From: a virus
Strand: one strand, 5' to 3'
Virus record (IMG/VR): IMGVR_UViG_3300043773_000793
Coordinates: 1-32,130 of that record
Length of the DNA stretch: 32,130 bases
Below the pieces are notes generated by a model. That model was not told the DNA's origin and did no database searches. It saw nothing but the letters and a program-made list of their open reading frames with translations. Each line of letters opens with the position of its first letter. Positions within the stretch are counted from its first letter, which is position 1. Of the stretch, positions 4,427 to 29,182 are shown piece after piece. Both the position numbers and the translations under genes were made by a program.

Positions 4427-5539
4427 TTAAATGTTTGTTGCAGTATAACGTAATGAACCATTGTTGCCAGTTAAGCGATCAGCAGATAAGAATGCATCAC
4501 TTGGTACTTGCCACAATGCAAAACGTTTGCTCATAATTAATGAGTAACCTGCACCAAGTGTAGTTTCTGAATAACCAACAGTTGTTTCTTGTGGGCAATC
4601 GATTTCTTTTAATTGGAAGTCGATGTTAAGCATACCCAATAAACCATCAGCACCTGGTAAATCAACAGGTACTGCCATGTTCCAAAACGTTGAAGTTCCT
4701 AACTTCTTTGCTCTAAAACCTCTGTATCTGTCTAATTCAACCAAACCAAAAGTACCCGGCATAAATACACCAAATTGATTTGATCCCCATGCTGATGTAG
4801 CATAAAGGTCATGATACCAATCAATGTTACCAGCAGCAGCGTTATTGTTTAATTGTGCATATTGAGTCATAGCACCATTAGCTGCTTGTATCATTGCACT
4901 ATTAACTAAACCACTACCAATTACAATCGGTCTACCTTGGCCTTCATTTACTGTGTAATCAGACAATACTTTTGTCCATCCTTCAGCAAATGAATTTACT
5001 GTGTTGTCATCGTTGAAGTTAACAGTTACCGCAGTATTGTTACCAGTTACGGCATTTGTTCCCCAAGTAATTTGACCTAATAATGTCTGGTCAATCTTAC
5101 CAACGAAGCCATTCATTGCAGCCATTAAGCCTGCTAAATGCTCTTGCATAAATGGAGTTGGTGCTGAACCAATTTGAACTGAAGCAGAAGCCTCATCGCA
5201 GTAACGTGCGATTGTAGCATCATCGAAATGCAATCCAAACTTTACAATTGAAGTAGTATCAATTGTCATTTCATCATAAGCCTGAACTAAATCAACATCG
5301 CAATTGTCGCTTGTTGACATTTGTGCAGGGATTGTACGATTGTAATACTTTAATCTCAAGTCTTTAATGTGACCAGCAGTATTACTTAATGATAGCGCAT
5401 CTTGTACAGGTGTCGCTTGTGCGCCTTTTTCTAAAGTTGCACGTAATAAACCACTCGGAGTGATTTTGTGTTCTGGTGCGTTTTGTCCAATCACATATTT
5501 CATGTGCATTAACATCGCGGGGCAATATCCTAAAGCCAT
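4427..5539 (-). CDS. Major capsid protein
   Basis: This 370-aa protein directly follows the scaffold-like gene and precedes the connector genes. It shows the capsid-type mix of alpha and beta: an N-terminal arm (residues 1-60), a long central region with FGLHFDDATIARYCDE, a helical stretch AGLMAAMNGFVGKIDQ, and a GSGLVNSAMIQAANG segment. Near the C-terminus are FGVFMPGTFGLVELDRYRGF and a final IMSKRFALWQVPSDAF. Length and order fit an HK97-fold capsid subunit. No prohead protease is encoded nearby, so maturation probably depends on scaffold release rather than on a phage protease seen here. The leader is A-rich with no Shine-Dalgarno. Confidence 0.75.
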   Translation of the reverse strand: MALGYCPAMLMHMKYVIGQNAPEHKITPSGLLRATLEKGAQATPVQDALSLSNTAGHIKDLRLKYYNRTIPAQMSTSDNCDVDLVQAYDEMTIDTTSIVKFGLHFDDATIARYCDEASASVQIGSAPTPFMQEHLAGLMAAMNGFVGKIDQTLLGQITWGTNAVTGNNTAVTVNFNDDNTVNSFAEGWTKVLSDYTVNEGQGRPIVIGSGLVNSAMIQAANGAMTQYAQLNNNAAAGNIDWYHDLYATSAWGSNQFGVFMPGTFGLVELDRYRGFRAKKLGTSTFWNMAVPVDLPGADGLLGMLNIDFQLKEIDCPQETTVGYSETTLGAGYSLIMSKRFALWQVPSDAFLSADRLTGNNGSLRYTATNI

Positions 5540-7771: not shown

Positions 7772-9720
7772 TAAGTCAATTGTGTTATTTTATTCAATTG
7801 TTCTTCAGATGTTATAATTTTTGGTGTTCCTATTTGTGCTTTTGCCTGCTCATATGTCAATCCAAATCTATCCATAACCATTTGTATAGCTGCCTCTAAA
7901 TCGTAAACACCACTACTTACCGCTTTAACGATTTCAATTATACCAGTTAAACCTCCAACTGTATATTTTAAATCTGCTGGAGATGGTGCATTGCCAGTAG
8001 ATACTTGTGCATCTGAAATATTAAATATCTTGTTTACAATTGAATCTTTAACCTCAATATTCTTTAATTTCTCTGTTGCATATTGTTCCAAAATAGCATA
8101 CTTCTGCGCCTTGGTTTGATTTATAAAATCCTTATTTTCGGCAATGGCACGATCAACAAAATCAAAAATATAAGTGCTTATTATAGCATCTAATTTTGAC
8201 ATCAATCGACTGCTAACTAATAAAGCTTTTTCTTCATCACTCTTGCCTGATGCAGGATCAAGTTCAAATGCATTGCGTAATTTATTTTGCATTGCAACGT
8301 CATTTGGAAAACGTTTTTTTATAAACTCAAGCTCCATCTCACTTAATACCGCATCATTTAATGTGCTATCCTTGGCTGCTTTTATCTCTTCTACGATGGT
8401 TTGAGAACCTAACACATCAAATGTATTAGGAACGATGCAAATCGGACACATACGTTTTAAATCACTATCATCGTACAAATTACCATATCTCCATTTTGCA
8501 ACTAAAAAAGACATACGTTCCATCATCAATGCCAAGTTTGTTGCAACGGCATAAAAAGTGTTGTTTGTTTCATCTCTATCGTATGCCTTTGCAACACCAC
8601 TTTGAGCAGCAGGTGCGCTTTCTAAAAATTGCATGTTTACCGCAGCCAAAGCACGATAACGCATCTCATTGATACGCTTATCTTGCAACTCGGCTATCTC
8701 TGGCTGCTTTTGAATGTAACCCATCGGTGGTGTAGGTGCTGGCACTTCTCCCATGGATGTCTTCGCAGGTCTAACTCTCAATGTTTCGTAAGGAGATAAT
8801 GGTATTTGACCATTACTACATCTGCTATTTGTACATGGCACACGTTCGTTTTCGCGCATTAACCATCCATTACCATTGCAAGTTGGACATTGCTCATCCT
8901 GATAAATCCAAACAGTTGAATGTATGTGCTGCGTTATCTCTGCACGTAAGTCGCTAAACTCGATAGTTGCTACATTTAGCCATGGTAACATCGCACGAAA
9001 TACAGATTGATATTCTCGGCCAAGCTCCTCTTCTTCCTCAACAATTCCACCAATAGTAAAGCCAGGGAATATTCCAAGGTTATGAATTGATTGCTCAATT
9101 AACACATACTTGTTTGTCCTATAATCACGTTTGTATTTATTCCAACTATACTTATCAACTGAATAGTAAATATTGCGATCATCATCATCCTTGTACACAA
9201 TTGAATTGCCTTCATACGAATAAATAATGCGGTCACTATTTATGATGTATGGTGTAGGTTTAGTATACTCTGTGTCTGATACTTCTTCTTCATTCCATAA
9301 GATAATAACGGCATTAACATCTATTACGGCTTGTTTTAAACCAACTTGAAAAGTCCAGTTAAATAGAGATTTTGATGCAGTAAAATTATAGTTAAGATAT
9401 ACATCTAACTTTTCATCCTTGCTTATTTTAGTAAATTCAGATTGGTCTGGGAATTTCAACATAAAACCATCTGCACGTTGTATTTTATTTAAAGAATTTA
9501 ACACTCGGTCAAACACTTCGCTGAATACTGGCTGATAAGTTTTCTTACGATATTCCTTTGCAATGTTATGTTCATTAGGTCTATTTTCATCAATTAATTT
9601 ATGCGGATATTCATCATCTGAATAAATCAAAAATTGTTCATATTCTTCACTCTCAATATGTGGATGTCTAATGATTTCCGTAACAATTCCGGCATCAATA
9701 ATAGGGAATTTTTTATCCAT
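7771..9720 (-). CDS. Portal protein with an inserted DnaJ-like zinc finger
   Basis: This 649-aa protein immediately precedes the minor head protein. It has a helical stem and clip region and a C-terminal region rich in long helices (residues 440-620) with a final FGLTYEQAKAQIGTP segment. Portal identity rests on size, order before the gp7-like gene, and the pattern AAVNMQFLESAPAAQSGVAKAYDRDETN, which resembles phage portals. Between residues 278 and 304 is CPTCNGNGW followed by VPCTNSRCSNGQ, a CxxCxGxG(x11)CxxxxCxxG zinc-binding module like half of a DnaJ finger. A glycosyltransferase gene precedes it, coupled by one shared base. Confidence 0.75.
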   Translation of the reverse strand: MDKKFPIIDAGIVTEIIRHPHIESEEYEQFLIYSDDEYPHKLIDENRPNEHNIAKEYRKKTYQPVFSEVFDRVLNSLNKIQRADGFMLKFPDQSEFTKISKDEKLDVYLNYNFTASKSLFNWTFQVGLKQAVIDVNAVIILWNEEEVSDTEYTKPTPYIINSDRIIYSYEGNSIVYKDDDDRNIYYSVDKYSWNKYKRDYRTNKYVLIEQSIHNLGIFPGFTIGGIVEEEEELGREYQSVFRAMLPWLNVATIEFSDLRAEITQHIHSTVWIYQDEQCPTCNGNGWLMRENERVPCTNSRCSNGQIPLSPYETLRVRPAKTSMGEVPAPTPPMGYIQKQPEIAELQDKRINEMRYRALAAVNMQFLESAPAAQSGVAKAYDRDETNNTFYAVATNLALMMERMSFLVAKWRYGNLYDDSDLKRMCPICIVPNTFDVLGSQTIVEEIKAAKDSTLNDAVLSEMELEFIKKRFPNDVAMQNKLRNAFELDPASGKSDEEKALLVSSRLMSKLDAIISTYIFDFVDRAIAENKDFINQTKAQKYAILEQYATEKLKNIEVKDSIVNKIFNISDAQVSTGNAPSPADLKYTVGGLTGIIEIVKAVSSGVYDLEAAIQMVMDRFGLTYEQAKAQIGTPKIITSEEQLNKITQLT

Positions 9721-24811: not shown

Positions 24812-24843
24812 CAAATATAAGTAATAATTACTTAATCTGCAAA
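24812..24843 (-). promoter_or_regulatory. Predicted promoter for the primase-helicase leader
   Basis: Minus strand TTTG (24843-24840), 20-nt spacer, TATATTTG (24819-24812) matches TTTG-N19/20-TAnnTTTG. The -33 box lies in the last codons of the Gp157-like gene. Start would be near 24805, about 100 nt before the ATG at 24703, leaving room for the hairpin. Confidence 0.6.
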
Positions 24844-25322
24844 TTACGATGTGTTGCAATGCTGCATCCAGCAACATCAACACCATCCTTTAACGCTGCT
24901 TTAATAGCAGCCTTATCGGCTTGTTCAGTAACTTTGACCACCTTGTATGCAGCAGGCAAAGCATTCACATCTTCCACCTCAACAGTTTCAGATTTTCTAA
25001 AGTTAATCTTAACCAATGGTGTTTTAATTTCATCAATGCTGAATAAATCCATAGCGTGTTTAATGCGGTCTTTAAGGTATTCTGATGCCTTTTCACGTTG
25101 CTTCTTCGCTGCCTGCAACCTCTTTATTTCAGCCTCAATAATTTCAACATCAGCATCCATTTGCTTAATAACAAATGAATAGGCAACAGATTTATTCTGT
25201 AGCTGCTCTTCGGTGATTGCAAGTGCTTCCTCAAGAGAGGGGGTTAATTCACCCCCATTCTCGATTAATTCTTCAGCTAATTGGTTATAGCTTTGTTCGA
25301 TGTTATAGATTGTTAGTTTCAT
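24828..25322 (-). CDS. Siphovirus Gp157-like protein
   Basis: This 164-aa protein has the family layout: an N-terminal YNIEQSYNQLAEELIENGGE helix and a central coiled coil (MDADVEIIEAEIKRLQAAKK, then REKASEYLKDRIKHAM). The C-terminal beta segment has KTPLVKINFRKSETVEVED and VDVAGCSI. Gp157-like proteins often accompany phage recombination genes. Its ATG shares one base with the ATPase stop, so the two are coupled. The reaction is unknown. Confidence 0.75.
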   Translation of the reverse strand: MKLTIYNIEQSYNQLAEELIENGGELTPSLEEALAITEEQLQNKSVAYSFVIKQMDADVEIIEAEIKRLQAAKKQREKASEYLKDRIKHAMDLFSIDEIKTPLVKINFRKSETVEVEDVNALPAAYKVVKVTEQADKAAIKAALKDGVDVAGCSIATHRNLQIK

Positions 25323-26155
25323 TATGCTTCGGTGTTAGGTGTTAGTTTGGTTTTCATTTCATCCTTAATTGTAACATAAGTATTTTTATCTGCTGCTGAT
25401 AGCGAATTAAAAATATTAGCTAATTCAGCTATAGTTGTAGCTTTCTTTAATCTTTTATCAGCACTTTCAACACCTTGTTCACACCATTGCTTAATTGCTT
25501 TACCAGTTTCTTCAGTAATCAAAAAAGGTTGTTTGCCCTCAAATAAATTAGTGCGGTCTTTTGATGGTGTAGCTAAATGTGTATCTCTATCCAAATTTAA
25601 TGAAACAGTCAATTCATATTCCCATCCCTCACGTTGCACATCTTTCATACCTACTTTATGAACTTTCTTGCCCTCACCCATCACAGTTTCCATTTTTGAC
25701 CGTGTGCAGGTAATAACGTGAGCATTAGCGTGTAGAACAGATGCTACAAATTTATCGTGTCTTGGTGTTGTTTTGCTCCAAGCACTCCAAGTATTGCCTC
25801 TAAAAGATGTTTGCGCTAACACTTCATTTTCATCTAATAGGCAATTCCATTCGTGACTGCTACTATCAATAATTATTACTTCCATTCCTGCATCAACACA
25901 AGCGTTAATTGCCTCCGTGTATTTCTCTGGTTGATATGGAGGTCTTAAATCTACAACATTGAATTCGCCTAAATGTGAATATAATGATGCACTACCATTT
26001 TCGGTATCAATAACCGCAATCTTTGACCAGTCTTGGCAAAGGCCATAGGCCATTAATAATGCTGAATAGGTTTTACCTGCTCCAGATGGAGCAGATATGT
26101 TTAACCTCAATTTTACTTGTTGTCTGGTTGCCTTTTTTAATTGAATTGTGTTCAT
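25322..26155 (-). CDS. Sak4-like RecA-fold recombination ATPase (AAA_24-type)
   Basis: This 277-aa protein has Walker A APSGAGKT (22-29), an IAVIDTENGSASLY segment (46-59) and Walker B EVIIIDSSSHEW (92-103), then a sensor-like VITCTRSKMETV. This fits AAA_24 phage nucleotide-binding proteins and the Sak4 branch of RecA-like annealing ATPases, which work with phage ssDNA-binding proteins. Neighbours are a Gp157-like protein and a DUF3127 protein with an SSB-like tail, which supports a recombination role. Its leader includes TTTAGATTAA before the ATG. Confidence 0.7.
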   Translation of the reverse strand: MNTIQLKKATRQQVKLRLNISAPSGAGKTYSALLMAYGLCQDWSKIAVIDTENGSASLYSHLGEFNVVDLRPPYQPEKYTEAINACVDAGMEVIIIDSSSHEWNCLLDENEVLAQTSFRGNTWSAWSKTTPRHDKFVASVLHANAHVITCTRSKMETVMGEGKKVHKVGMKDVQREGWEYELTVSLNLDRDTHLATPSKDRTNLFEGKQPFLITEETGKAIKQWCEQGVESADKRLKKATTIAELANIFNSLSAADKNTYVTIKDEMKTKLTPNTEA

Positions 26156-26173: not shown

Positions 26174-26527
26174 TTAAAAAGGTAAATCATCATTACTTAT
26201 TGGTGCGCTTGGCTTTGAATAACTTTCTTGTGGTTCTTCAGTCTGGGTGAATGGATTCGCATCTATCTTCCAACACGCAATGGTATTGAACACCTTAACC
26301 TCACCTTGTGGTGATGTCCACTCACGACCTCTGATGTTAATGTATGCCTCAATGTCTTGCCCTACCTTAAGGTCATCTGCAAGTGAGCAGGCTTTCTGCT
26401 GCAATTCGATTGATACTACTTGCGGATATTGGTCTGCGGTTGTTAGGATTAGTTCTCTCTTTGAGAATTTACCATCACTAACTGTTGTCGTTGCGCCAAT
26501 GCGCTTTACTGTGCCTTTGATTGTCAT
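26174..26527 (-). CDS. DUF3127 protein with SSB-like acidic tail
   Basis: This 117-aa protein starts MTIKGTVKRIGATTTVSDGK and continues with an OB-like run of strands (RELILTTADQYPQVVSIELQ, DIEAYINIRGREWTS, FNTIACWKID). The body matches DUF3127 of Bacteroidota. The end, PISNDDLPF, closely mimics the DDIPF tip of bacterial SSB, which binds partner proteins. Inference: a phage ssDNA-binding protein acting with the adjacent Sak4-like ATPase. It lies 18 nt from that gene. Confidence 0.7.
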   Translation of the reverse strand: MTIKGTVKRIGATTTVSDGKFSKRELILTTADQYPQVVSIELQQKACSLADDLKVGQDIEAYINIRGREWTSPQGEVKVFNTIACWKIDANPFTQTEEPQESYSKPSAPISNDDLPF

Positions 26528-26536
26528 TTGATTTAT

Positions 26537-26827
26537 TTATTTGTTTTTGTGTAAAAAATCGGTTAATACCATTGAAAGAAATGAGGTGTGCGGAATGTAA
26601 TCGTTAAATTGTAAGTTAATTTCGTGTTTGTCATTGCTAACTGCCAAATCACATAATTGCATTGTCCAGAATGCATCTTTAAGTTCGATTGAAGCAGTTA
26701 TTTCGTTGTCTTTATTCCACACATAAAATGTTTGGATTTCTGATTCATATTCTATGCGTTCTTTAGAATTTTCGATTTGCCACGTTGTAAGTGTAGACAC
26801 ATTTGTGATTACGTTAATTGAGTTCAT
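26537..26827 (-). CDS. Hypothetical early protein
   Basis: This 96-aa protein (MNSINVITNVSTLTTWQIEN) is mixed, with a mid-region KDNEITASIELKDAFWTMQL and a hydrophobic C-terminal SFLSMVLTDFLHK. No motif recognised. Its leader ends CTAACAATG after an ATTAATCTTAAA element (26853-26842), shared with other early genes, and it lies 9 nt upstream of the DUF3127 start. Confidence 0.5.
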   Translation of the reverse strand: MNSINVITNVSTLTTWQIENSKERIEYESEIQTFYVWNKDNEITASIELKDAFWTMQLCDLAVSNDKHEINLQFNDYIPHTSFLSMVLTDFLHKNK

Positions 26828-26848
26828 TGTTAGTTTAGTTGTTTAAGA

Positions 26849-27067
26849 TTAATATTGATTTTGGTATGCAGATACTATTTTATTGTAGCAATGTTTTTTG
26901 GCTTGTTGGTGCATTGCTTTATTACTGTCATCATTCAACCAATCGAATGCTTCAGAATCGGTTGTGTGCGCTTGAATTTGTTTACCTCTGTAAGTAGCAG
27001 ATACAATGTATTGTCCATAACCATTTCCTCTGCTGATTTCTAATGTTACTTTTCTAAATGTGTTCAT
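26849..27067 (-). CDS. Hypothetical small early protein
   Basis: This 72-aa protein (MNTFRKVTLEISRGNGYGQY) has a beta-like N-terminal half with IVSATYRGKQIQAHTTDSEA and a helical C-terminal HQQAKKHCYNKIVSAY. Function unknown. It is driven by the strong predicted promoter at 27102-27132, and its leader contains ATTAATCTTAAA (27091-27080), 12 nt from the ATG. Confidence 0.6.
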   Translation of the reverse strand: MNTFRKVTLEISRGNGYGQYIVSATYRGKQIQAHTTDSEAFDWLNDDSNKAMHQQAKKHCYNKIVSAYQNQY

Positions 27068-27101
27068 GTTGTTTTGTTTTTTAAGATTAATAATGTGAGT
27101 G

Positions 27102-27132
27102 CAAATGTAGTTATATTAATTTAACCTACAAA
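27102..27132 (-). promoter_or_regulatory. Predicted early promoter, copy 1 of a repeated 40-bp element
   Basis: TTTG (27132-27129), a 19-nt spacer and TACATTTG (27109-27102) on the minus strand fit the consensus well. Positions 27102-27141 match 27583-27622 at 37 of 40 bases, including a 25-bp perfect block (27117-27141). Transcription would start near 27095, before the 72-aa gene. Confidence 0.75.
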
Positions 27133-27144
27133 TTTATTTTAAGT

Positions 27145-27561
27145 TTATTTTGATAAAAAAGCGTTAACTGATTCTTGAGTAAACTTTTTTGAGAAAAATT
27201 CACGAGCAAATTGTTTGTTAGATTTTACGAATGCATAGTAATCTTTAAGCAATTTACCTGCTAATTTTACTTGACCTAACACATCTGAAGATGCTTCCTT
27301 GTTAGCTGATAATTTAGCCTTGTTTTTTTCAGCCTTTTGGTCTGCTCTAACTTCTTCAGTTAAGAAAAATAATTTCCACTCACGCTCTAATTCTTTGTTT
27401 CCAGCAAGAATAGCACCTACCTTATTATTATGCCATTCGCAGCGTTGTTGAGCAGCAGCCCACCCAATGATGTATGGCTCATAAGATTCAACTGTTCTGA
27501 TTACTAACATTGCGTTGTAATTTCTTTTTGCGTTTTCGATTTGTTTTTGTGTGTAGTTCAT
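27145..27561 (-). CDS. Hypothetical basic early protein
   Basis: This 138-aa protein starts at MNYTQKQIEN (ATG 27561). An upstream ATG at 27585 lies within the predicted promoter and is rejected. It is Lys/Asn/Ala-rich, with IIGWAAAQQRCEWHNNK and REWKLFFLTEEVRADQKAEK, and a Lys-rich C-terminus. Its helical, basic character might suit nucleic-acid or host-protein binding, but no family is recognised. It has its own promoter at 27583-27613. Confidence 0.6.
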   Translation of the reverse strand: MNYTQKQIENAKRNYNAMLVIRTVESYEPYIIGWAAAQQRCEWHNNKVGAILAGNKELEREWKLFFLTEEVRADQKAEKNKAKLSANKEASSDVLGQVKLAGKLLKDYYAFVKSNKQFAREFFSKKFTQESVNAFLSK

Positions 27562-27582
27562 TGTTCTTGTTTTTTGATGGGA

Positions 27583-27613
27583 CAAATGTAACTATAGTAA
27601 TTTAACCTACAAA
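27583..27613 (-). promoter_or_regulatory. Predicted early promoter, copy 2 of a repeated 40-bp element
   Basis: TTTG (27613-27610), a 19-nt spacer and TACATTTG (27590-27583) on the minus strand. The 40 bp 27583-27622 repeats 27102-27141 with three mismatches, all between the boxes. The start would be near 27576, 15 nt before ATG 27561. Confidence 0.75.
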
Positions 27614-27627
27614 TTTATTTTATGCTT

Positions 27628-27870
27628 TTAACATATTTTAACATATTTCTTTGCAAGGTTATAAACTTTAAAATGTTGTGGCTTCCAGTTTGCCACACGA
27701 TTTCGCAGAATGTTTTTGACTTGTTCTTGGGTCATAAAACATTTTTCACCAATGGTCACGAATGCGCCTTTGCCAGCATTTCTGCCATAGGTCTGCACTC
27801 TTTCAAGGTTAATTTGCTTGATTGCATCGTAAATTTCTTGTAGTTGTTCGGGTGTTGGTTTATTATTCAT
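27628..27870 (-). CDS. Hypothetical small early protein
   Basis: This 80-aa protein (MNNKPTPEQLQEIYDAIKQI) has helical N-terminal Gln/Glu residues, a GRNAGKGAFVTIGEKCFMT segment and a C-terminal NWKPQHFKVYNLAKKY. No motif recognised. Its stop lies just upstream of copy 2 of the repeated promoter, and its start is 1 nt from the next gene's stop. Confidence 0.55.
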   Translation of the reverse strand: MNNKPTPEQLQEIYDAIKQINLERVQTYGRNAGKGAFVTIGEKCFMTQEQVKNILRNRVANWKPQHFKVYNLAKKYVKIC

Positions 27871-27871
27871 A

Positions 27872-28075
27872 TTATTTTTTTGTTTCGGTATCTAAATAAT
27901 CTATTTTTTTCTTAATGTCCATCATTGAATTATATTCTAATTCAACTTTTAATGAGTTAATAATTTTACCAGCGGTATTGGCTAATTCCTTGCCTACATT
28001 TAAACCCATTTTTCCTGCTTTCATTTTAGTGTAATTATCACTTAAGCTATTTCTTAATTCTACGATGTTTTGCAT
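27872..28075 (-). CDS. Small conserved phage protein of unknown function
   Basis: This 67-aa protein reads MQNIVELRNSLSDNYTKMKA then MGLNVGKELANTAGKIINSL and VELEYNSMMD. The pattern (ELRNSL, KxGKM/KELANxAGKI, KVELEY) is one I recall as widespread in Bacteroidota phages and prophages. It is helical. It overlaps the zinc-finger gene's 3' end by 16 nt. Role unknown. Confidence 0.7.
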   Translation of the reverse strand: MQNIVELRNSLSDNYTKMKAGKMGLNVGKELANTAGKIINSLKVELEYNSMMDIKKKIDYLDTETKK

Positions 28076-28620
28076 ATTCTTTTTGTTTTTATGATTAATC
28101 TTTTAATTTCTAATAATGATGGATTATTTTTTAATTGCTCAATTGTAAATCCGTTTTTTTCTCTCAATAATTTTGACACATATCTATCAGTTACATTTTC
28201 TCTTCTGTTAGCTTCCAATAAGCGTGTCTTATTATTAATTTCAGTTTTGTTTTTTTGAAAGTAATTTTTTGCAGTATGAATATTTCTTTTGTGGTTTTCA
28301 TTTCGCCAAACTTTTTTTATTTCTACTTTACAATCAAAACAATACCTTGATAATAACTGCCTACCTATTAATGAGCAATTGCATTTAATACATTTGTTTT
28401 CAATTTGCTTTCTCAATTGAATTTCTTTTTTTTTAGCAGCAACTTTTGGTCTTGACCTTTCATTATATTCTTTGACCTTATGCTTATTTTTTTCAATCCA
28501 ATTTTTTTGCATTAAGTAATTACAACTTTTACAATACGAACGTAATCCCGACTTAACACTATTGTCTTTGCAAAAATCAGTTAGTTGCTTTTCGCATTTA
28601 CATTTGCTGCAAGTTTTCAT
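28060..28620 (-). CDS. Double zinc-finger protein, possible HNH-related DNA-binding protein
   Basis: This 186-aa very basic protein starts CSKCKCEKQLTDFCKDN and SYCKSCNYLM, a zinc-ribbon seen at the N-terminus of many phage HNH endonucleases. A second pair lies at CIKCNCS and YCFDCK. The C-terminus has TDRYVSKLLREKNGF and SLLEIKRLIIKTKR. No HNH active-site H-N-H core is apparent, so nuclease activity is doubtful. It may be a DNA-binding early protein. It overlaps both neighbours by a few bases. Confidence 0.6.
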   Translation of the reverse strand: MKTCSKCKCEKQLTDFCKDNSVKSGLRSYCKSCNYLMQKNWIEKNKHKVKEYNERSRPKVAAKKKEIQLRKQIENKCIKCNCSLIGRQLLSRYCFDCKVEIKKVWRNENHKRNIHTAKNYFQKNKTEINNKTRLLEANRRENVTDRYVSKLLREKNGFTIEQLKNNPSLLEIKRLIIKTKRICKTS

Positions 28621-29151: not shown

Positions 29152-29182
29152 CAAACCTACTATAAATTTTTATTAAAACAAA
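29152..29182 (-). promoter_or_regulatory. Leftward promoter of the divergent region
   Basis: Minus strand TTTG (29182-29179), 19-nt spacer, TAGGTTTG (29159-29152). It faces the rightward promoter at 29184-29214 nearly back to back. The start would be near 29145. The 107-nt gene-free stretch 29131-29237 holds only these two promoters and short leaders. Confidence 0.65.

Follow-up and report, generated by a model that had tools for sequence, protein, structure and literature searches.

A repeated phage promoter with a strictly spaced AGGT element as a probable seam of a cargo-gene hotspot

T4-like phages carry promoter early stem-loop (PeSL) cassettes (Arbiol et al. 2010; Comeau et al. 2014), as related in the part of PMC4503421 that deals with them, and the MotA-dependent middle promoters of T4 are treated in the relevant part of PMC6755090. 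In the Bacteroidetes, promoters of the primary sigma factor have the consensus -33 TTTG / -7 TANNTTTG, according to the promoter sections of PMC6847099; section 14 of that paper gives the -7 box as TAHHTTTG and places the transcription start 4 to 5 nt beyond it. Judging by titles and the beginnings of abstracts, none of the papers found deals with such promoters in phages of Bacteroidetes. Here we describe a locus that shares features with all of these and compare it across a group of related viral sequences.

The window, i.e., the whole stretch of DNA analyzed (32,130 bp), is an entire virus record. The first-pass annotation had described a 40-bp early promoter that occurs twice in it, and the repeat was recovered exactly as described. 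The two stretches, 27102-27141 and 27583-27622, have the same base at 37 of their 40 positions, and 25 of these form an uninterrupted identical block, which spans 27598-27622 in the outer copy (minus-strand sequence, TAAAATAAATTTGTAGGTTAAATTA) and 27117-27141 in the inner one. The copies are 481 bp apart, a distance mostly taken up by a single 138-aa ORF (27145-27561, minus strand; P1 below). Without gaps, the repeat reaches 45 bp at 89% identity. The 25-bp block is the longest exact direct repeat of the window, while in 100 order-1 Markov simulations the longest exact repeat averaged 15.7 bp and never exceeded 19 bp. When the window was searched with the 25-mer, allowing up to 3 mismatches, these two places were the only matches, and none of 100 shuffled sequences had two. 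Both copies are on the minus strand, in the same direction as the ORFs behind them.

Read along the minus strand, the locus begins with P3, an 80-aa helix-turn-helix (HTH)-like protein and candidate regulator (27628-27870). The outer promoter copy, the cargo gene P1, the inner promoter copy, and the 72-aa cargo gene P2 (26849-27067) follow. The conserved 96-aa gene G96 (26537-26827) closes the variable segment and is followed by genes for a DUF3127 single-strand DNA-binding protein (SSB; 26174-26527), an AAA_24/Sak4-like annealing protein (25322-26155), a Gam-like/Gp157 protein (24828-25322), a primase/helicase, and a helicase. This order places both promoters within a replication/recombination gene block. 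P3 precedes the outer copy, the AGGT of which starts 22 nt after the first base of the P3 stop codon, and the variable gene P1 precedes the inner copy. The genes served (SSB, Sak4-like, Gam-like, and primase/helicase) fit early or middle expression.

Both copies fit TTTG-N19-TANNTTTG with TACATTTG as the -7 box, the outer one at 27583-27613 (AGGTTA at 27603-27608) and the inner one at 27102-27132 (AGGTTA at 27122-27127). Given the start distance reported in section 14 of PMC6847099, transcription is predicted to start at about 27577-27578 and 27096-27097, respectively. The pattern TTTG-N17-21-TANNTTTG had nine matches in the window, compared to 2.65 expected, and none of 100 shuffles had nine. 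Thus, consensus fit and position support the promoter reading of the first-pass annotation. Inside the block, TAAATTTG (27610-27617 and 27129-27136, minus strand) could be a box for a second start site. Two further conserved promoter-like sites were seen on the minus strand. One, TTTGTTTTAATAAAAATTTATAGTAGGTTTG at 29152-29182, lies ahead of the P3 operon and, from the gene order, likely serves it; versions of it were present in 13 of 26 listed loci, a list in which some contigs appear twice and some begin too late to show the site. The other, TTTGCAGATTAAGTAATTATTACTTATATTTG at 24812-24843, precedes the primase/helicase gene and has a perfect palindrome, AAGTAATTATTACTT, in its spacer, so that it looks like an operator; it is identical in L014, L017, L020, and L026, with a variant in L012.

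Neither megablast of 26400-28400 nor tblastn of P3 and P1 detected relatives in the phage record collection. Relatives were obtained with P3 (21 contigs), the DNA pattern (24 viral contigs and one contig of a metagenome-assembled genome [MAG]), G96 (43 contigs), the 103-aa cargo protein of L018 (4), P2 (17), and a profile of three P3 types (78 loci), many contigs recurring between these queries. The 78 profile loci, the window, and L048 make 80 P3 loci, 69 of them distinct over 220 bp; the other 11 repeated the same 220 bp and were dropped. The 69 loci belong to three P3 classes: I (21 loci, the class of the window), II (43), and III (5). The counts leave out L036 and L043 (a look-alike sequence; tblastn with six proteins of the window gave no match), L055, L089, and L090 (G96 present but no P3 match), L028 and L041 (no P3 found ahead of the promoter), and L093, L094, and L101-L111 (a cargo protein has its relatives there at other places). 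The phage contig L048 (CANMBF010000074.1), which belongs to the group, was assigned to the bin of a Bacteroidetes MAG (isolate ZE-17mar17-168); this hints at Bacteroidetes as the host phylum.

In all 69 distinct P3 loci, window included, AGGT stands right behind P3, always exactly 18 nt upstream of the -7 position; the search pattern demanded AGGT at this fixed spacing, and none of the 69 loci had been discarded for want of it. In Flavobacterium johnsoniae (F. johnsoniae) numbering, with the -7 box at -12 to -5, the element is at -30 to -27. The pattern AGGTWW-N12-TANNTTTG was present no more than 45 nt from the P3 stop in 67 of the 69 loci, as was the -7 element TANNTTTG itself; in the other two, L138 and L145, the -7 box is altered. 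The -33 TTTG was found at N19 in 27 loci and at N18 in 33, and was missing in 9. Thus, AGGT is kept more strictly (69/69) than TTTG (60/69), and it is retained even though P3 identity drops to 26-42% between classes (window P3 versus aligned class II and III members).

This element was also looked for in the MAG holding L048. There, TTTG-N19-TANNTTTG fits 78 sites and a reversed control pattern 36, so that perhaps half of the 78 are due to chance. AGGTW occupies the corresponding place in two of the 78, both in the phage contig, and in none of the other 76; AGGTWW-N12-TANNTTTG occurs seven times (two in the phage contig), as does the reversed pattern. AGGT is therefore not part of the promoter consensus of that genome as seen here, a genome that may not be the host's. 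The conserved spacer had been taken as a possible shared binding site for a regulator and had been expected to persist in close relatives. The first idea gains indirect support from the AGGT spacing, fixed in 69/69 loci, together with its absence from 76 other promoter-like sites of the MAG. The second holds for one half of the spacer (TAGGTTwAA), while the other half is free. Conservation of a spacer is not special by itself, because that of the 29152-29182 site is conserved, too. The strictness of AGGT and its absence from the other bacterial sites support a regulator-binding element near -30, which is plausibly read by P3.

Behind the outer promoter, gene content varies. In 48 loci, the first ORF belonged to one of 22 families, 12 of them seen in one locus each; in seven loci it was G96 itself, i.e., there was no cargo. 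Four cargo families accompany P3 genes of two or more classes. PHROG and Pfam yielded no match for P1, for P2, or for seven of ten other cargo proteins compared with both databases; two of the ten had Pfam matches below the cut-off. Three PHROG matches were obtained for the cargo of L020, two of them of unknown function (E values of 3.2e-05 and 4.2e-04), and its 186-aa cargo protein (L020, 2399-2959) is weakly similar to a Q-like antiterminator (phrog_6060, E value of 0.01). From their position and variability, we would guess that the ORFs between the promoter and G96/SSB are candidates for counter-defence or host-takeover functions.

Individual cargo genes differ in their distribution. A viral_contigs scan for close relatives revealed one relative of P1, in L027, with 54% identity and behind a different promoter. 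L027 has another promoter plus leader (TTTGCATCATCAAAATCACAC) twice, at 4944-4990 and 8666-8713, with TATCA...TGATA inverted repeats in the spacers; one of these copies precedes the P1 relative. The P2 protein is 100% identical in L010 and 97% identical in L015, and distant relatives (40-76% identity) are present in 11 other viral contigs (L101-L111), so the P2 cargo family extends beyond the group; near these relatives, neither G96 nor a promoter of this type was found. In L018 (approximately 1640-1690) and in the matching end of L028, the last part of the 103-aa cargo gene of L018 resembles, in a different reading frame, the 3' terminus of P3 genes (GTTAACAGATATAAATAAACC), which would fit arrival of the inner promoter together with a fragment of a P3 gene.

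We propose as the probable explanation that the repeat consists of two copies of one phage-specific promoter which mark the seams of a cargo-gene hotspot, with activation by P3 and recombination at the seam as parts of this explanation. Pairwise comparisons showed where identity between genomes changes. In L011 and L018, identity starts at the promoter core and continues for 274 bp downstream, while the sequences ahead of the block are unrelated; their 67-aa cargo gene is identical at 204/204 positions, and their P3 and SSB genes are 91% and 84% identical, respectively. L018 and L028 are identical over 133 bp upstream (up to the end of L028), have six core differences, and are unrelated downstream. 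The window and L015 also have six core differences; their upstream sequences are unrelated, and the stretch 8 to 184 bp downstream is identical. Between L017 and L019, ten core differences are followed by identity from 5 to 257 bp downstream. Finally, L016 and L041 agree completely over 290 bp upstream and throughout the core; the two positions that follow are different, and identity drops to 88% in the next gene.

Furthermore, left and right promoter halves occur in all four combinations in three four-gamete sets. In one, TTAGG/TTTTG is combined with AAACTC-TATATTTG/TAATTG-TACATTTG, approximately 12 bp apart; the other two are between class I flank types, approximately 30 bp apart. This reshuffling indicates that the promoter marks the left edge of the cargo hotspot. 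In L009, which lacks P1, the promoter core combines the 5' difference of the outer window copy with the two 3' differences of the inner copy (three informative sites), and outer-type sequence upstream is joined to an inner-type leader downstream, as recombination between such copies, in either direction, would be expected to give. The P2-family gene of L009 is 69% identical to that of the window; hence, any such event must be old, and L009 is no direct before-or-after partner of the window. The Sak4-like, SSB, and Gam-like genes adjoin the promoters in this phage, and according to PMC2327257, the lambda Red Gam system recombines DNA with 22% divergence.

The same junctions bear on a different explanation, in which cargo enters by illegitimate joining together with its own promoter, as morons do, and the promoter is kept for the host sigma factor and perhaps a regulator, with no role in recombination. 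Sharp switches in identity (at least 97% on one side and at most 87% on the other, over 100 bp) were found at the promoter in 3 of 322 pairs, versus 2 of 210 at the P3 5' end and 2 of 253 at the SSB start. These control positions thus show some switches as well, with no clear excess at the promoter, which is in line with moron-like entry and counts against a recombination seam. No sharp switch was detected in mid-P3 (0/210) or inside SSB (0/253). Since intact genes can be joined only between genes, random joining followed by selection could produce a like pattern, and selection would leave junctions between intact genes. The P2 relatives of L101-L111, near which no such promoter was found, also agree with independent entry. 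However, cargo of different families shares a single promoter at a single site instead of each family having an unrelated promoter of its own, the P1 relative in L027 has a quite different promoter, and some identity changes fall inside the promoter, with four-gamete spans of approximately 12 bp (one set) and 30 bp (two sets). Entry of each cargo gene with its own promoter is possible but not likely.

Activation by P3, the other part of the proposed explanation, was approached through the protein. A model computed from the three aligned P3 classes has four helices (mean pLDDT, 90.6; pTM, 0.78), and helices 36-43 and 48-55 are arranged like an HTH; the mean pLDDT was 85.6-90.6 in four of the five models and 53.9 in one. 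An earlier model from close relatives alone was poor (pLDDT, 54) and was set aside for the three-class model. In Foldseek searches with the model, the best PDB match had an E value of 0.48 and none was significant, but nearly all of the 50 matches listed were HTH DNA-binding proteins, among them XRE, C-protein, lambda and P22 repressor, SinR, HipB, and LacI-type proteins. The best BFVD match (E value of 0.25) and the best VIA match (Z score of 5.5) were not significant either, with HTH proteins mixed with unrelated helical ones in VIA. At the sequence level, class II and III P3 proteins matched HTH_37 (E value of 0.0062), an HTH PHROG (0.0082), and sigma-70 region 4 (0.06), the Pfam HTH matches being below the curated cut-offs. 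The window P3 itself had no HTH match in the Pfam and PHROG profile searches, and a profile search of the PDB gave nothing usable (best E value of 0.057 for a DNA ligase, followed by homeodomains). Altogether, P3 has a confident helical model but weak HTH matches, and it may have an XRE/lambda-repressor-like HTH fold.

P3 also covaries with the promoter. The Mantel set comprised 48 of 49 hand-chosen loci from those fetched at that time, near-identical contigs being omitted and L075 being kept out due to its altered -7 box. P3 divergence correlated with the -33 half at r = 0.88 and with the -7 half at r = 0.35. Cargo correlated with the left half at r = 0.17 and with the right half at r = 0.20, so that the right half tracks the cargo family weakly. 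All six correlations, those with the "wrong" halves included, were above all 2,000 permutations. Covariation of P3 with the left half would also be expected from linkage with this adjacent half alone. Based on modeled fold, position, and covariation, we infer that P3 is a regulator that binds this promoter.

A regulator at this site could also be a repressor, autogenous or of the lysogeny type, for which the block would serve as an operator. The block overlaps the -33 box, repressors (lambda, P22 c2, SinR, and HipB) are frequent among the weak structural matches of P3, and the inner copy has an imperfect palindrome over its spacer (27110-27125). But in the outer copy the search for this palindrome gave nothing beyond 6-bp arms, and the -33 TTTG is lost in nine of the 69 loci in which AGGT is kept, a loss more readily understood if AGGT aids transcription. 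We consider an operator rather unlikely.

Two promoter copies were present in four of the 69 loci, the window, L016 (=L004), L018, and L048, all of class I and all with ORFs between the copies. When the whole records behind 27 loci were scanned, L004, L018, and L048 had two copies each, L027 had none, and the remaining 23 had one. The first-pass annotation had offered recent duplication as one origin, and a tandem duplication of the promoter segment in this lineage, later split by insertion of P1, would agree with the high identity of the copies (37/40) over a short stretch in the same orientation. We compared 28 promoter instances from 25 loci, a set which includes two near-identical contig pairs and in which the second copy of L048 was missed by the pattern. 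Three within-genome pairs differed at 3, 4, and 7 of 34 positions, compared to a median of 5 between viruses; of 375 between-virus pairs, 27%, 39%, and 79%, respectively, differed by no more. The window pair is the one with three differences, equalled or undercut by those 27%. Moreover, the four two-copy loci hold eight copies, and for all of these except the outer copy of L048, another virus carries the very same 31-bp core; both window copies are among these seven. The inner copy of L048 has AGGTAT, the class III form, beside a class I P3, and its 31-bp core is identical to that of L132. Divergence of the between-virus kind, shared cores, and this class III copy speak against local duplication, which we regard as improbable; acquisition from outside by recombination fits better. 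A tandem promoter without a regulator, with TAAATTTG as a second, upstream -7 box, is very improbable. TAAATTTG does fit TAHHTTTG (PMC6847099, section 14), and of the 21 class I loci, 20 have a TANNTTTG in the 14 nt that precede AGGT, as do all 5 class III loci. However, none of the 43 class II loci has such a box, and they nevertheless keep AGGT.

In summary, the promoter has a Bacteroidetes-type -7 box and an AGGT at fixed spacing, approximately -30 to -27, and is the site following P3 in every P3 locus examined. Variable genes extend from it to G96/SSB, ORFs lie between the copies, copies in one genome differ in origin, and promoter halves are reshuffled. We propose that P3 would be made from an upstream promoter, probably that at 29152-29182, would bind the AGGT region, and would help host RNA polymerase to start there, as T4 MotA does at -30. 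Once P3 is made, the replication/recombination operon and the cargo would be turned on. Since the group's phages have one promoter block in common at this place, recombination could join genomes inside it, perhaps via the phage's own Sak4-like/SSB annealing system, and cargo could be gained, lost, or swapped there without loss of expression. In this phage, P1 would be such cargo and the inner promoter a second seam. More tentatively, the locus might represent a middle-promoter class of its own, in which a new 69- to 88-aa HTH family (P3) activates at AGGT at -30 and the same block is the seam for exchange of counter-defence-type cargo.

The locus bears on how phages trade small accessory genes readily and yet keep their expression timely. 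Here, seam, switch, and candidate switch protein sit and vary together across dozens of viruses, which makes the proposal testable with one protein and one reporter. As a practical handle, the interval from the promoter to G96/SSB may locate candidate host-takeover and counter-defence genes in Bacteroidetes phages.

Among known systems, the nearest kinds are the PeSL cassettes and the MotA promoters of T4, and the locus is a member of neither. Like PeSLs, as presented in the part of PMC4503421 cited above, it has a conserved phage promoter between small variable genes that is proposed as a shuffling seam, and the promoter is repeated between such genes, with two copies and ORFs between them in 4/69 loci. 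Unlike PeSLs, which that source describes as being at high density in T4-like phages, it is present in one or two copies per record, and both the promoter type and the phage group are different. Neither a stem-loop nor a terminator was found beside either window copy, and the 77-78 nt upstream of the copies folded no better than shuffled sequences (z = 1.32 and -0.06). PeSL membership was rejected due to the missing stem-loop at the window copies. With MotA promoters, as characterized in the part of PMC6755090 cited above, the locus shares a -10/-7 box combined with a phage-specific element near -30 (AGGT in 69/69 loci), a position before replication/recombination genes, and a small phage-encoded, DNA-binding-like protein as candidate activator (here P3). 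It differs in that the -33 TTTG is usually still present in P3 loci, and the MotA family was not among the Pfam matches of five P3 proteins in sequence-profile searches at E values of up to 1. From Bacteroidetes primary-sigma promoters, as defined in the promoter sections of PMC6847099, it differs by the additional strict AGGT at about -30 and by the absence of TTTG in 9/69 P3 loci; both boxes and their spacing match, and by sequence the promoter fits this Bacteroidetes class plus one added element.
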